The position numbers and the translations under genes were made by a program. From an uncultured Euryhalocaulis sp. (GTDB taxonomy: Bacteria; Pseudomonadota; Alphaproteobacteria; Caulobacterales; Maricaulaceae): a stretch of DNA of 64,000 bases. The DNA lies in contig CAJXKJ010000001.1 of the NCBI GenBank assembly GCA_913055605.1, positions 62,001 through 126,000 on the forward strand. Reading direction: 5' to 3'. This document shows, piece after piece, positions 17,361-23,096 of the stretch. The first letter of the stretch is position 1; each line of letters begins with the position of its first letter. The notes beneath the pieces were generated by a model, which did no database searches, had not been told where the DNA came from, and saw nothing but the letters and a program-made list of their open reading frames with translations.

Positions 17361-18119
17361 ATGATCCTTCTCACCGCCGCAGCCCCCCTTGCGCCCGAGG
17401 CGCCCGCCGCCGCGCCAATTCCCGCGCCCGCGCTGGAGGCGCCGATTCTGCCCGACCTGACGCCCTGGGGCATGTTCATGGGCGCGGACATCGTGGTGAA
17501 GCTGGTCATTATCGGCCTGCTCGTCGCGTCGGTGGTCACCTGGACGATCTATCTGGCCAAGAGCGCGGAGCTGCGCTCCGCCCAGCGCCGCCTGCGCGAC
17601 GCCATCGACGACGTGAATTCCGCCAGCTCCGTTCAGGACGCCGCGACCCGCGTCGGCGAGGCCGGTGCCCCGGGCGCCCTGGCCCAGGCGGTGGCGGAGG
17701 AGCGCGCGATCTCCCGCTCCACCGGCGCGGCCGACAAGGAAGGGGTGAAGGAGCGCGCGGTCTCCCGCCTGGAGCGGATCCAGGCCGGGGCCAACCGGCG
17801 CATGACGGCCGGGGTCGGCATCCTGGCCACGATCTCCAACACCGCGCCCTTCGTCGGCCTGTTCGGCACGGTCTGGGGGATCATGAACGCCTTTATCGGC
17901 ATCTCGGAATCGCAGACGACGAACCTCGCCGTCGTCGCGCCGGGCATCGCGGAGGCGCTGCTGGCGACCGCGCTGGGTCTGGTTGCGGCGATCCCGGCTA
18001 CGGTGATCTATAATCATTTCAGCCGGGCGGTCGGCGGCTGGCGCGCGAACCTGATGGATTTGTCCGCCGCGCTGCTGCGCCTGCTGTCGCGTGAACTGGA
18101 TTCGGACGGAGCGCGGTAA
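17361..18119 (+). CDS. exbB: TonB-system proton channel protein ExbB
   Basis: 252 residues. The N-terminus is Ala/Pro-rich; TM1 lies at about residues 45-67 (VVKLVIIGLLVASVVTW), TM2 and TM3 at about 153-178 and 195-215, with GLFGTVWGIMNAF and ALLATALGLVAAIPA. It belongs to the MotA/TolQ/ExbB family and forms the pentameric inner membrane channel that energises TonB. Its stop overlaps the exbD start (TAATG), so the two are translationally coupled. TolQ is excluded by the piuC and TonB neighbours. Confidence 0.95.
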   Translation: MILLTAAAPLAPEAPAAAPIPAPALEAPILPDLTPWGMFMGADIVVKLVIIGLLVASVVTWTIYLAKSAELRSAQRRLRDAIDDVNSASSVQDAATRVGEAGAPGALAQAVAEERAISRSTGAADKEGVKERAVSRLERIQAGANRRMTAGVGILATISNTAPFVGLFGTVWGIMNAFIGISESQTTNLAVVAPGIAEALLATALGLVAAIPATVIYNHFSRAVGGWRANLMDLSAALLRLLSRELDSDGAR

Positions 18120-18541
18120 TGGGCATCAAGCTCAGCGGCGACAGCGACGAGCTTGAAGAAAGCCACGACATCAACGTCACGCCCATGCTGGACGTGATGC
18201 TGGTGCTGCTCATCATTTTCATGGTCGCCGCGCCGCTGGCCACCGTGTCGGTCCCCGTCGACCTGCCGGACTCCAATGCGCCGGCCGACCCGCGCCCGGA
18301 CAAGCCGATCTATCTGTCCATCCGCGCCGACTCTACGCTCGCGCTCGGCGAGACCGACGTGACGATGGAGGGGCTGGGCGAGGCGCTGGCCGCCGAGACC
18401 GGCGGCGACACCGAGACGCGCGTCTATATCCGCGGCGACCGCGCGGTGGCCTATGGCGAGCTGATGGGCGTGATGAACGCCTTGCGGGCCGAGGGCTACA
18501 GCCAGGTTGGTCTGGTGGGGCTGGAGGACGTGGCACCCTGA
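18119..18541 (+). CDS. exbD: TonB-system protein ExbD
   Basis: 140 residues. A short cytoplasmic start ([26 protein letters not shown]) carries the membrane Asp needed for proton translocation, within the single TM at about residues 25-45. A periplasmic domain follows ([11 protein letters not shown]...[12 protein letters not shown]). Overlaps exbB by one base and tonB by one base. Works with ExbB to transmit the proton motive force to TonB. Confidence 0.95.
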
Positions 18542-19245
18542 TGCTGCGGCAGTTCACCGATCCGGCCCGGCGTGTGTGGTCGATCTGCTTCTGCGTCGCA
18601 ATCTTGATGCACGCGGGGGCGGCCGCCGCGCTGCTGGTGTCCCAGCCCTTCAAGGCGCAGGACGCGACCTCGCCAATGCAGATCGCGCTGCTGCCGCCGC
18701 CGCCGACGCCCGAGCCTGAGCCCGAACCGGAGCCGGAGCCCGAGCCGGAACCTGAGCCCGAGCCCGAACCGGAGCCGGAACCTGAACCCGAACCGGAGCC
18801 CGAGCCGGAACCGATCCCGGAGCCCGAGCCCATTCCCGAGCCGGTGACCCAGCCGGCCCCGCCGCCGCCGCCCCGGCCCACGCCTCCGCCGCCGCCGCGT
18901 CAGGCGACGGTCGCTCCCGCGCCGCCGGCGCCACCCGCGCCCCCGGCCAAGACCCAGGGCGAGATCAGCTGGGAGGCGCGCGTGGTCGCGCATGTGAAGC
19001 GCCACCAGCGCTATCCGCGCGAGGCCCGCTTCAACCGGGAGGAAGGCACGGTGCGCGTGCGTTTCACCGTGGACCGCGGCGGCGCCGTGCGCCTGCGCGA
19101 AGTGGTGGAGGGCAGCGGCCATCCCGATCTGGACGCGGAGGCGCTGGCCATGTTCGACCGCGCCTCGCCGGTGCCGCGCCCGCCCGAGGAGATGCGGGGC
19201 GCCCAGTTCACCTATGTCATCCCGGTGAATTTCGACCTGCACTGA
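18541..19245 (+). CDS. tonB: Energy transducer TonB
   Basis: 234 residues. One N-terminal TM ([22 protein letters not shown], His in the membrane as in TonB), a long rigid Pro linker with about 19 Glu-Pro units (residues about 57-100) followed by Pro/Ala repeats, and a C-terminal TonB domain with [18 protein letters not shown] and [11 protein letters not shown]. It spans the periplasm to contact the TonB box of receptors. The start overlaps the exbD stop (TGATG). The linker DNA is a repeat tract that could vary in length between strains. Confidence 0.95.
18709..18840 (+). repeat. Glu-Pro codon repeat tract in tonB
   Basis: About 22 copies of the 6-bp unit GA(A/G)CC(N), broken twice by ATCCCG/ATTCCC. 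It encodes the EP-rich linker of TonB. Codon choice is mixed (GAGCCC, GAACCG, GAGCCG), which lowers but does not remove slippage risk. Confidence 0.9.
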
Positions 19246-21262: not shown

Positions 21263-21997
21263 CTATCGGTGACTGATCACCAGCGCTTCGGAAAACTCGC
21301 GCCGGCTCACCCGGCCGTCGCCATTGCTGTCCAGCGCTTCGACACCGTCGCCCTCGCCGAGCGCCAGCGCGCCGTCGCCGTTCTCGTCCAGCAGAGCGAA
21401 CGCGCGTTCCGCGGCGTCGCCCAATGCGGTCTCCACCTCGTCCATGGAGATAATGCCGTCTCCGTCAGAGTCGAAGGCGGCGAATACGCCGTCGGCGTTC
21501 TGCGGCGCGGGATGAACGGTCTCGTCATGGACCGCTGCCAGCGACACGTTGCCGAAGGCCAGAAACATGTCTGGCCCGGCGTCTTCGGCTTTCAGGCGGA
21601 TCATCGCGTCTGACTTCACGCCGATTGCGGCGCTCTGGTATTCGTCCCGGCTGATCGCGCCGTCGCCATTGGCGTCCAGGGTCTCGAAAAAGGGCCGCAG
21701 ATCGGGCGCGGCCCCGGCGGGGAGGGTGCTGGTCAGAAGGGCGGAAACCCCGGCCGCGCCGATCACGGCGGCGAAGGCGGGGCGGGGATGTTTGCGGATG
21801 GCGGTCATGGCGGTCTCCACTGTCAGGTTGGCCTTGGGACGCGCCGGCCGCCGCACATAGTCCGCCATGAATTCCCGGAACAGGGCGCTGGCGGGACGGC
21901 CCTCCCTGCGGGCCCTGGCGAGGAAATCCCGCTTCAGGCTCCAGGGGACGCGGACCTTGATCGTCTCGCTCTTTTTCTCGTTCCGTTCGGGTTTCAC
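21263..21997 (-). CDS. RHH domain, membrane segment and EF-hand protein (copy A)
   Basis: 244 residues. Residues about 8-48 (SETIKVRVPWSLKRDFLARA... ASALFREFMADYV) have the strand-helix-helix pattern of CopG/Arc-type DNA-binding domains. After a basic stretch (RKHPRP) comes one hydrophobic segment at about 73-95, ending PAGAAPD, which could be a stop-transfer anchor or an AxA signal peptidase site. Four EF-hand loops follow: DANGDGAISRDE, DSDGDGIISMDE, DENGDGALALGE and DSNGDGRVSRRE. Predicted topology: DNA-binding part inside, Ca-binding part in the periplasm. This suggests a membrane-tethered calcium-responsive regulator, an inference. The next gene upstream is its paralogue. Confidence 0.78.
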   Translation of the reverse strand: MKPERNEKKSETIKVRVPWSLKRDFLARARREGRPASALFREFMADYVRRPARPKANLTVETAMTAIRKHPRPAFAAVIGAAGVSALLTSTLPAGAAPDLRPFFETLDANGDGAISRDEYQSAAIGVKSDAMIRLKAEDAGPDMFLAFGNVSLAAVHDETVHPAPQNADGVFAAFDSDGDGIISMDEVETALGDAAERAFALLDENGDGALALGEGDGVEALDSNGDGRVSRREFSEALVISHR

Positions 21998-22071
21998 GTG
22001 GCGGCTCCATGCGGCGCGGCGCGCGCCGAACAGCGCACGCCGCCAGCCTCAGGAAAACCGCAAAGCCGTGC

Positions 22072-22093
22072 GCACACAATGCGTTTCGTGTGC
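22072..22093 (-). promoter_or_regulatory. Inverted repeat upstream of RHH/EF-hand copy A
   Basis: Arms GCACAC and GTGTGC enclose a 10-bp centre (AATGCGTTTC). It lies 75 bp before the start codon at 21997. The same layout is found before copy B at 23052-23073, with matching changes in both arms. It could be an autoregulatory operator, or a weak terminator of the gene upstream. Confidence 0.5.
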
Positions 22094-22126
22094 CCACGGC
22101 CTTTGCCCGCGATCACGGGGCGATGG

Positions 22127-22972
22127 TCAGACGGCGTCCTCGTATTCCGCCCGGGTGACGGCGCCGTCGCTATCGGCGTCGGCGCGCTTCAGGGCCTCCG
22201 CGACGCGTTCGCCGCCGTCCGGCGAGCCCAGCGGGTTGGCGGTCATCTCCGCCTCGGAAATCACGCCGTCGCCGTCGGAATCCAGCGTGTCGAAGGACCG
22301 GGTGCGCATGGTCAGCCACCGCGCCTCGAACTCTGCGAAGGACAGCGCGCCGTCGCCGTCCGCATCGCCTGCCATGAACTCGGCCAGCAGCGGCCGGGGC
22401 GGGCCGGAATCCAGCGGCGTCTGCGTCTGCTCCTGCCCGGTCCGGCGCATCGAATACAGGATCATGGTGCGCTCTTCGCCCTCGGGCGTCGTCATGGGCA
22501 GGAAGATCGGCCCGACATTCTGCTCCCCGGCGGACGGCGGGGTGAAGTCGGGCGATTCCGGCCGGCGCTCCAGGCGGATTTCGCGGGTCTCGCCGCCGCT
22601 GCGGTCCCGGCCGATCTCCTCAAGCGTGACTGCGCCGTCGCCGTCGGCGTCCAGGCGGTCGAAGGCCGCGCGCAGGTCGGGCGCGGCGCCGGCGGGGATC
22701 GTGCTGGCCAGAAGGGCGGATATTCCCGCCGCCCCCAGGACGGCGGCGAAGGCGGGGCGGGGATGTTTGCGGACGGTGTGCATGGCGGACTCCAGCGTTT
22801 GGGTTGCGGTGCGATGCGCTGGCCGCCGCACATAGTCCTCCATCAGCCGGCGCAGCGCTTCGCTGGCCGGAACGCCTTCGCTGCGCGCCTTCGCCATGAA
22901 CGCCTGTTTCAGGCGCCAGGGCACACGCGCTTCGATCGTTTCGGACTTCTTCTGGGGCTTGTCGGTCTTCAC
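22127..22972 (-). CDS. RHH domain, membrane segment and EF-hand protein (copy B)
   Basis: 281 residues, same architecture as copy A: RHH-like KKSETIEARVPWRLKQAFMA and ASEALRRLMEDYV (about residues 8-50), basic VRKHPRP, hydrophobic AFAAVLGAAGISALLAST ending AGAAPD, and four EF-hands (DADGDGAVTLEE, DADGDGALSFAE, DSDGDGVISEAE, DADSDGAVTRAE). The third position of the last loop is Asp and the fifth is Asp, so Ca binding is still plausible. Between loops one and two sits an 80-residue insert (about 130-200) absent from copy A, with no recognised fold. The RHH and membrane parts are the most alike between the two copies. Confidence 0.78.
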   Translation of the reverse strand: MKTDKPQKKSETIEARVPWRLKQAFMAKARSEGVPASEALRRLMEDYVRRPAHRTATQTLESAMHTVRKHPRPAFAAVLGAAGISALLASTIPAGAAPDLRAAFDRLDADGDGAVTLEEIGRDRSGGETREIRLERRPESPDFTPPSAGEQNVGPIFLPMTTPEGEERTMILYSMRRTGQEQTQTPLDSGPPRPLLAEFMAGDADGDGALSFAEFEARWLTMRTRSFDTLDSDGDGVISEAEMTANPLGSPDGGERVAEALKRADADSDGAVTRAEYEDAV

Positions 22973-23051
22973 CGGATCGGCTCCGTCTGCGGCGGTTCAC
23001 GCCCGCCGAAACAGACACGCCGCCAGCATCACTCAAAGCCGCAAGTGGCCG

Positions 23052-23073
23052 GGACACAAGGGTTTTCGTGTCC
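23052..23073 (-). promoter_or_regulatory. Inverted repeat upstream of RHH/EF-hand copy B
   Basis: Arms GGACAC and GTGTCC enclose AAGGGTTTTC, 80 bp before the start codon at 22972. Compared with the element before copy A, the second base of the left arm and its partner on the right both changed, so pairing is kept. Confidence 0.5.
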
Positions 23074-23096
23074 GGACACCGATCCCCGCGAAACGC

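Follow-up and report, generated by a model that had tools for sequence, protein, structure and literature searches.

Putative repressors joining a ribbon-helix-helix head to a signal-peptide-like segment in the Caulobacterales

Two adjacent genes, P1 and P2, lie on the minus strand of a 64,000-nucleotide (nt) stretch (the window) of contig CAJXKJ010000001.1 from an uncultured Euryhalocaulis sp., and each encodes a DNA-binding-like start, a hydrophobic segment, and four EF-hands in a single chain. What might such a protein regulate, and in response to what? A sequence-only reading of the window had taken the pair to form a one-component route from periplasmic Ca2+ to transcription. Sequence comparison of P1, P2, and their relatives gave a ribbon-helix-helix (RHH) identity for the head, a palindromic operator, covariation of that operator with residues of the RHH strand, an internal ribosome-site signal, and linkage to the signal peptidase I gene lepB. 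The best explanation as a whole, and in our judgment a probable one, is a repressor fused to a signal peptide, which would control its own gene or, in the Caulobacteraceae, lepB. Loci and genomes other than the window are given by our own handles, which begin with L and G, respectively.

Layout and RHH head of P1 and P2

P1 and P2 are paralogues, and on the minus strand an amidohydrolase-like gene (named by reading) precedes P2, which is followed by P1. Both proteins run in the same order, from about 50 N-terminal residues containing KKSET..R, through a basic linker and a hydrophobic segment, to four EF loops. Positions in the window are as follows.

22127-22972, minus strand: P2 gene, GTG start, 281 amino acids; RHH head, linker, signal-peptide-like segment, and four EF-hands
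22823-22951, minus strand: RHH head of P2 (residues 8-50)
22703-22753, minus strand: hydrophobic segment of P2 by hydropathy (residues 74-90), then AGA-A
22145-22651 overall, minus strand: four EF-hand loops of P2, at 22616-22651, 22331-22366, 22247-22282, and 22145-22180
21263-21997, minus strand: P1 gene, GTG start, 244 amino acids; layout as in P2
21848-21976, minus strand: RHH head of P1 (residues 8-50)
21728-21778, minus strand: hydrophobic segment of P1 by hydropathy (residues 74-90), then AGA-A
21296-21676 overall, minus strand: four EF-hand loops of P1, at 21641-21676, 21437-21472, 21353-21388, and 21296-21331

The canonical EF loops lie at residues 108, 176, 204, and 223 of P1 and at residues 108, 203, 231, and 265 of P2, and Pfam EF-hand_5 matched both proteins above its cut-off (E = 1.5e-19 and 1e-18, respectively). 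In both, RKHPRP stands before the single hydrophobic segment and AGA-A at its end, so that the features of a signal peptide (a basic n-region, a hydrophobic core, and an AxA site) are visible by eye and by hydropathy. The basic linker ahead of the segment would keep the N terminus inside the cell and put the EF-hands on the far side. In these respects, namely the four loops, the single segment after a basic stretch, and the predicted topology, the sequence-only reading holds.

It had also described the start of each protein as CopG/Arc-like. Pfam did not detect the head in full-length scans of P1 and P2, and the N terminus of P2 alone gave only a weak match to RHH_1 (E = 0.13), but the relatives were more informative. 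Among the N termini of 50 relatives, matches at E values up to 1 were found to RelB (24 of 50), RHH_1 (23 of 50), and RHH_9 (22 of 50); the best match to RHH_1 had an E value of 5.6e-7, and L043, L058, L193, and L071 passed the RHH_1 cut-off. A profile built from the 50 heads matched DinJ (4e-4), ORF56 (0.0036), and VapB26 (0.004) among PDB sequences, and R16, K22, and R41 are invariant across the 50. We conclude from these profile matches that the head belongs to the RHH (MetJ/Arc/CopG) superfamily, as had been proposed. Structure prediction had been suggested earlier as a check. An AlphaFold2 model of P2 residues 1-56, made as a single chain from four sequences with a mean predicted local distance difference test score (pLDDT) of 77, contained helices at residues 19-31 and 36-49, and nearly all of its structural neighbors were RHH proteins (PutA, Arc, CopG, NikR, and TacA), although the scores were weak (Z of 5.1 and a Foldseek E value of 0.59 at best) and the strand was left unassigned. 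The full-length model of P2 was poor (pLDDT 48).

The head is widespread in the order. The N-terminal 113 residues of P2 matched 57 of 137 genomes of the same family (E up to 0.01), and a profile of the head plus segment matched 159 of 398 Caulobacterales genomes, from 34 of 59 genera, at E values up to 1e-6; the weakest of the 159 matches, with E values near 1e-7, could represent other RHH proteins. When the same profile was run at 1e-8 against 337 class-wide genomes, six matched: two of the order, two outsiders with the full layout (L205 and L206), and two that were short. The counts below refer mostly to a set of 102 members, from which L059, L092, L045, duplicates, and false anchors had been removed; L083 was removed elsewhere as a weak RHH match. 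Head and membrane segment share one chain in all members examined.

The operator and the residues that track it

The sequence-only reading had pointed to dyads upstream of both genes. These are real and conserved: the palindrome TGTCCGGACA was found with at most one mismatch within 250 nt upstream of 77 of the 102 members, in 45 of them exactly. Among the first 65 members, with L045 left out at a contig end, 45 had such a site, versus 40 of 2458 random windows from the same loci. Two copies of the site are assigned to each of P1 and P2.

23069-23078, minus strand: operator copy 1 of P2, TGTCCGGACA
23047-23056, minus strand: operator copy 2 of P2, TGTCCCGGCC, 22 bp on from copy 1
23031-23059, minus strand: putative P2 promoter, from the -35-like element (23054-23059) to the -10-like element (23031-23036), placed from 95 aligned upstream regions
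22089-22098, minus strand: probable operator copy 1 of P1, CGTGGGCACA, with a diverged core, placed by alignment with the P2 upstream region
22067-22076, minus strand: operator copy 2 of P1, TGTGCGCACG

A 15-bp form of the operator, TGTCCGGACACGAAA, occurs at 11 sites in the 137 genomes of the family, and all 11 sit 91 to 127 bp ahead of a member (the one behind one of these sites, L126, is weak and interrupted by a stop). In the 398 genomes of the order there are 21 such sites, of which 17 stand before a member, 3 before a Caulobacter lepB, and 1 elsewhere; 15 of the 17 are on the same strand as the member, and in the other 2 (L207 and L220) the palindrome is read from the other strand. The remaining site, L209 (G146, Caulobacteraceae), is the sole one of the 21 with no member or lepB seen nearby.

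When 95 upstream regions were aligned on the site, little emerged besides the palindrome, a CGAWTTT run, a -35-like element at +19 to +24, the second copy at +22 to +31, and a -10-like element at +42 to +47. At +22 the second copy had 5.54 of 10 matches, versus about 2.5 at other offsets. This alignment used a lax criterion, five of the six bases of TGT....ACA, which about one-third of random windows also meet (28.6% with five bases and 5.4% with six), and the site picker gave a small bonus, equal for all members, to palindromic and C..G cores. With copy 2 lying over the -35 element and the spacer, the predicted geometry is most likely that of a repressor.

The four core bases of the palindrome track the residues at strand positions 12 and 14 of the head (P2 numbering). 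In the 95 members with lax sites, CATG accompanied K12 in seven of eight cases and occurred in none of the 87 others; ACGG or CCGT accompanied R12 with E14 in 10 of 10 and none of the 85 others; CCGG went with R12 and D14 in four of four, and ACCG with T12 and D14 in three of three. P1 is the only member with T12 and K14, and its core is GCGC. A stricter set of 76 members, in which all six flanking bases are present, gave the same pairings: K12 with CATG in four of five (0 of 71 others), R12 and E14 with their cores in seven of seven (0 of 69), and R12 and D14 with CCGG in three of three. Residue pair and core shared 1.489 bits of mutual information in this set, and no value above 0.987 arose in 5000 shuffles. 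In 40 representatives collapsed at <60% identity, the value was 1.633, none of 5000 shuffles reached it, and the shuffle maximum was 1.554. In a tree made with both residues masked, which is built on few columns and leaves many forks unresolved, K12 and CATG were concordant in a mean of 2.8 of 3 well-supported independent pairs and never opposite. Within the K clade, the R-bearing L080 has CCGG, as does L049 with a weaker site. The covariation indicates that residues of the RHH strand read the palindromic operator.

Clusters of such genes occur elsewhere, with three RHH-membrane genes at L088 (4942-7600) and two at L086 (4900-6600); like P1 and P2, they have their own operators with different cores (CCGG and ACCG).

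Is the operator the mark of a larger regulon? We rejected this, because exact 15-bp sites are found almost exclusively at the family's genes and Caulobacter lepB; weaker sites were not traced through the individual genomes. Among the relaxed patterns, TGTCCCGACACGAAA stood ahead of a member at two of six sites, TGTCCGGACAGGAAA at one, and TGTCCCGACAGGAAA at none, the remaining sites not being near a member. With up to two mismatches, the genome of P1 and P2 itself has nine sites versus five for a reversed control, so most of these are due to chance. One pair in that genome, consisting of the one-mismatch form TGTCCGGACAGGAAA and, 21 bp further, TGCCGGGACG (L099, about 1480-1520; G000:C16:46675-46689), immediately precedes, on the other strand, a small open reading frame (ORF) that resembles an exported protein and stands between trigger-factor-like and ClpP-like ORFs (all named by reading). 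This small ORF is a possible second target of the operator.

A predicted second start and the link to signal peptidase I

Between head and segment, P1 and P2 each have an in-frame ATG (M64) preceded by TGGAG, and the short products would begin like signal peptides.

22790-22793, minus strand: internal Shine-Dalgarno-like GGAG of P2
22781-22783, minus strand: internal in-frame ATG of P2 (M64); predicted short product of 218 amino acids
21815-21818, minus strand: internal Shine-Dalgarno-like GGAG of P1
21806-21808, minus strand: internal in-frame ATG of P1 (M64); predicted short product of 181 amino acids

An in-frame ATG at this place is found in 80 of the 102 members, versus 47.9 expected from methionine frequency. 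The Shine-Dalgarno energy of the best internal ATG of each member averaged -5.57 kcal/mol, versus -5.59 kcal/mol at the best candidate primary starts; over all 113 internal ATGs the mean was -4.12 kcal/mol, versus -1.87 kcal/mol at other in-frame ATGs (n = 417) and -1.92 kcal/mol out of frame (n = 740). Shuffling of synonymous codons under the same best-of rule gave a mean of -3.56 kcal/mol, and none of 200 shuffles was as strong as the observed sequences. A GGA lies ahead of the internal ATG by 10 nt in 41 cases and by 11 nt in 15, and since the spacing takes either value, it is not fixed by one codon phase. An internal start passing -4 kcal/mol was found in 70 of the 102 members. We infer from the ribosome-site signal that both starts are used, which would give a long product and a headless exported one.

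In the Caulobacteraceae the operator leads to a different gene. We examined 20 loci, from 34 genomes of that group with a profile match, and in 19 of them the RHH gene and a lepB gene converge from opposite strands, within 162 nt in 18 and 1.8 kb apart in L223. NCBIfam TIGR02227 (6.5e-45) identifies the copy at L210 as signal peptidase I. All 19 of these lepB genes have the operator 50 to 96 nt before them (17 exact and 2 with one mismatch), and 17 of the 19 have a second copy (at least 7 of 10 matches); in random 300-nt windows of these loci, an exact site was present in 73 of 2000. The RHH gene's own promoter has a site with at most one mismatch in only three of the 20 loci (L233, L234, and L235). 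Nine of ten Caulobacteraceae genomes searched hold at least two lepB copies, and the other main copy of the same genomes lacks the operator in nine of nine. Two genomes are exceptions. G434 (L277) has no lepB neighboring the RHH gene, yet exact TGTCCGGACA sites precede both its only lepB, at a distance of 106 nt, and its RHH gene; in G402 (L290), a one-mismatch site is found at a distant third lepB copy. The signal peptide of the regulator, together with the operator before the adjacent signal peptidase gene, suggests that the regulator reports signal-peptide processing or export.

Weighing the explanations

How would such a protein work? In the proposed scheme, the RHH head, inside the cell, would bind the two tandem palindromes, 22 bp apart and straddling the -35 region, and would most likely repress the target promoter, that of its own gene in most of the order and of the neighboring lepB in the Caulobacteraceae. 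Through its hydrophobic segment the protein would reach the membrane and lie across it, the head on the inner side and an EF-hand, TonB_C, or other domain on the outer side, and the AxA site could be cut there by signal peptidase. From the same mRNA, the internal Shine-Dalgarno sequence and ATG would also yield a short ordinary exported protein. Proteolytic release at AGA-A had been offered earlier as an alternative to a stable tether; it gains from a segment that reads as a signal peptide and from an operator-bearing neighbor that is signal peptidase I, although cleavage itself we only infer. Either the cut or the uncut form may be the repressing one. As to the signal, one tentative extension is that the family senses signal-peptide processing, such that the uncut fraction would report the capacity of signal peptidase or the translocon, the head would adjust lepB (in the Caulobacteraceae) or the protein's own exported product, and the internal start would supply the headless form. 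We give this somewhat less than an even chance.

The calcium route proposed earlier has the four canonical EF loops of both P1 and P2 on its side, along with the basic linker before the segment and a subgroup that resembles a plain membrane anchor followed by EF-like loops; on this account, outer EF-hands would bind Ca2+ and the uncleaved, tethered RHH protein would change its grip on DNA. The passengers of the family speak against it. A strict EF loop, by our own pattern, is present in 59 of the 102 members and absent from 43; at least one subgroup, with L169, carries a TonB_C domain behind the same head and operator; and of ten members scanned with Pfam, six had no match beyond the head. Because the passengers vary in this way under one head and operator, we set calcium aside: as far as these sequences tell, it is not the family's common signal. 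Moreover, the internal start found in most members would make an EF-hand protein without the head, AGA-A suggests cleavage, and nearly all exact 15-bp operators precede the family's own genes or Caulobacter lepB, with no calcium-related target gene seen among its sites. As the purpose of the design, a periplasmic calcium sensor is therefore unlikely; calcium may still matter to P1 and P2 in particular. Sensing of export or processing would fit the family better.

Another account is that the head merely holds the level of an exported protein constant, with neither the tether nor the cut conveying a signal and the head a passenger that is lost along with the signal peptide. The varied passenger domains and the exact operator before the own gene at all 11 sites in the family's genomes agree with it. 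It does not explain why the operator stands before lepB instead in the Caulobacteraceae, nor why the head is fused to a membrane segment, which a plain repressor would not need, and we hold it doubtful. It is far less credible that the internal ATG is the sole real start and the upstream RHH-like frame a relic, or translated without function. The internal ribosome site is as good as the primary one and P1 and P2 begin with GTG, but the strand residues covary with the operator, three head residues are invariant, and the primary starts have normal Shine-Dalgarno energies. A toxin-antitoxin system with an RHH antitoxin was set aside, since no partner was seen: there was no toxin-like ORF beside P1 and P2 or among the 25 largest neighbor clusters of 62 loci, by names given on reading and with no toxin profile search made.

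Several observations weigh against our preferred explanation. No site with at most one mismatch was found for 25 of the 102 members, including the own promoters of 17 of the 20 Caulobacteraceae genes, and the promoter elements rest on base frequencies. Among the 40 representatives the single positions were weaker than the pair, position 12 being reached by 20 and position 14 by 12 of 5000 shuffles, and three K12/CATG pairs and one R12 and E14 pair in the tree fall below significance in a sign test. The cleavage-site regular expression matched 98 of the 102 members and so does not discriminate; signal peptides were assessed visually and from hydropathy. Eleven of 13 members of the SER/TER subgroup, with its plain-anchor look, lack a strong internal start. 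By eye, the methionine before the segment is missing in 18 of the 20 Caulobacteraceae members, and therefore the second start and the lepB link are largely mutually exclusive. Outside the Caulobacteraceae, none of 44 lepB copies in 30 genomes had a site with at most one mismatch; an order-wide link was thus rejected, and the link is confined to one family.

How does the proposed repressor compare with known systems? Transmembrane transcription regulators are defined by a DNA-binding domain and at least one transmembrane region, and their predominant DNA-binding type is helix-turn-helix (PMC10269533). The main text of that article contains neither "ribbon" nor "RHH". By its definition, the uncut long form of the RHH-segment proteins would qualify, whereas a cleaved segment would not remain a transmembrane region. 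As in ToxR, CadC, and TcpP, taken as examples of that class, a DNA-binding domain inside, one membrane segment, and an outer domain would be united in one protein; unlike those regulators, as far as that source describes the class, the proteins discussed here have an RHH head, a segment resembling a cleavable signal peptide, a predicted internal start for a short exported form, and an operator at their own gene or lepB. RHH autorepressors and antitoxins (CopG, Arc, ParD, and RelB/DinJ) bind a palindromic operator at their own promoter, repeated about two helical turns apart. The RHH head and the repeated palindromic operator at the own promoter are shared with them, while the family is set apart by a head joined to a segment of the membrane or signal-peptide type and to an exported domain, with no toxin partner seen. 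SecM and VemP are export sensors that act by translation arrest on their own mRNA. By analogy with these, export of the secreted protein itself would serve as a readout of the export machinery and set the expression of a gene for that machinery; unlike them, a DNA-binding domain in the same chain would act on transcription.

The sequence-only reading knew of no described system of this design, and none was found in the open-access literature, to which our searches were confined: no description joins ribbon-helix-helix with EF-hand, and the operator palindrome, searched as text, led to no bacterial regulator by title among the open-access papers shown. Within that literature we found no account of the RHH-segment regulator family. 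The family is widespread, unites a DNA-binding head and a signal peptide in one chain, and has an operator code that can be read from sequence. For studies of protein-DNA specificity, it supplies naturally occurring RHH proteins together with the operators that match them. A single gene would, through its two starts, give both a membrane-tethered regulator and an exported product, and the lepB link, if true, would amount to feedback on signal peptidase I in Caulobacter, which is widely used in the laboratory.

Besides lepB, the commonest neighbor of the family is a GyrA-like ORF (named by reading), found within about 5 kb in 15 of the 62 loci and in several genera, and not adjacent in the case inspected; we take it to be old gene order. 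The loci concerned are L038-L047, L052, L053, L055, L057, L063, and L076. In the window itself, two genes convergent with P1 and P2 (19368-20405 and 20402-21244, overlapping by 4 bp) encode exported-looking proteins of 345 and 280 amino acids that are alike by eye. Beyond them, at 17361-19245, lies what we take, by reading, to be an ExbB/ExbD/TonB-like trio, whose TonB-like member has a long EP repeat.

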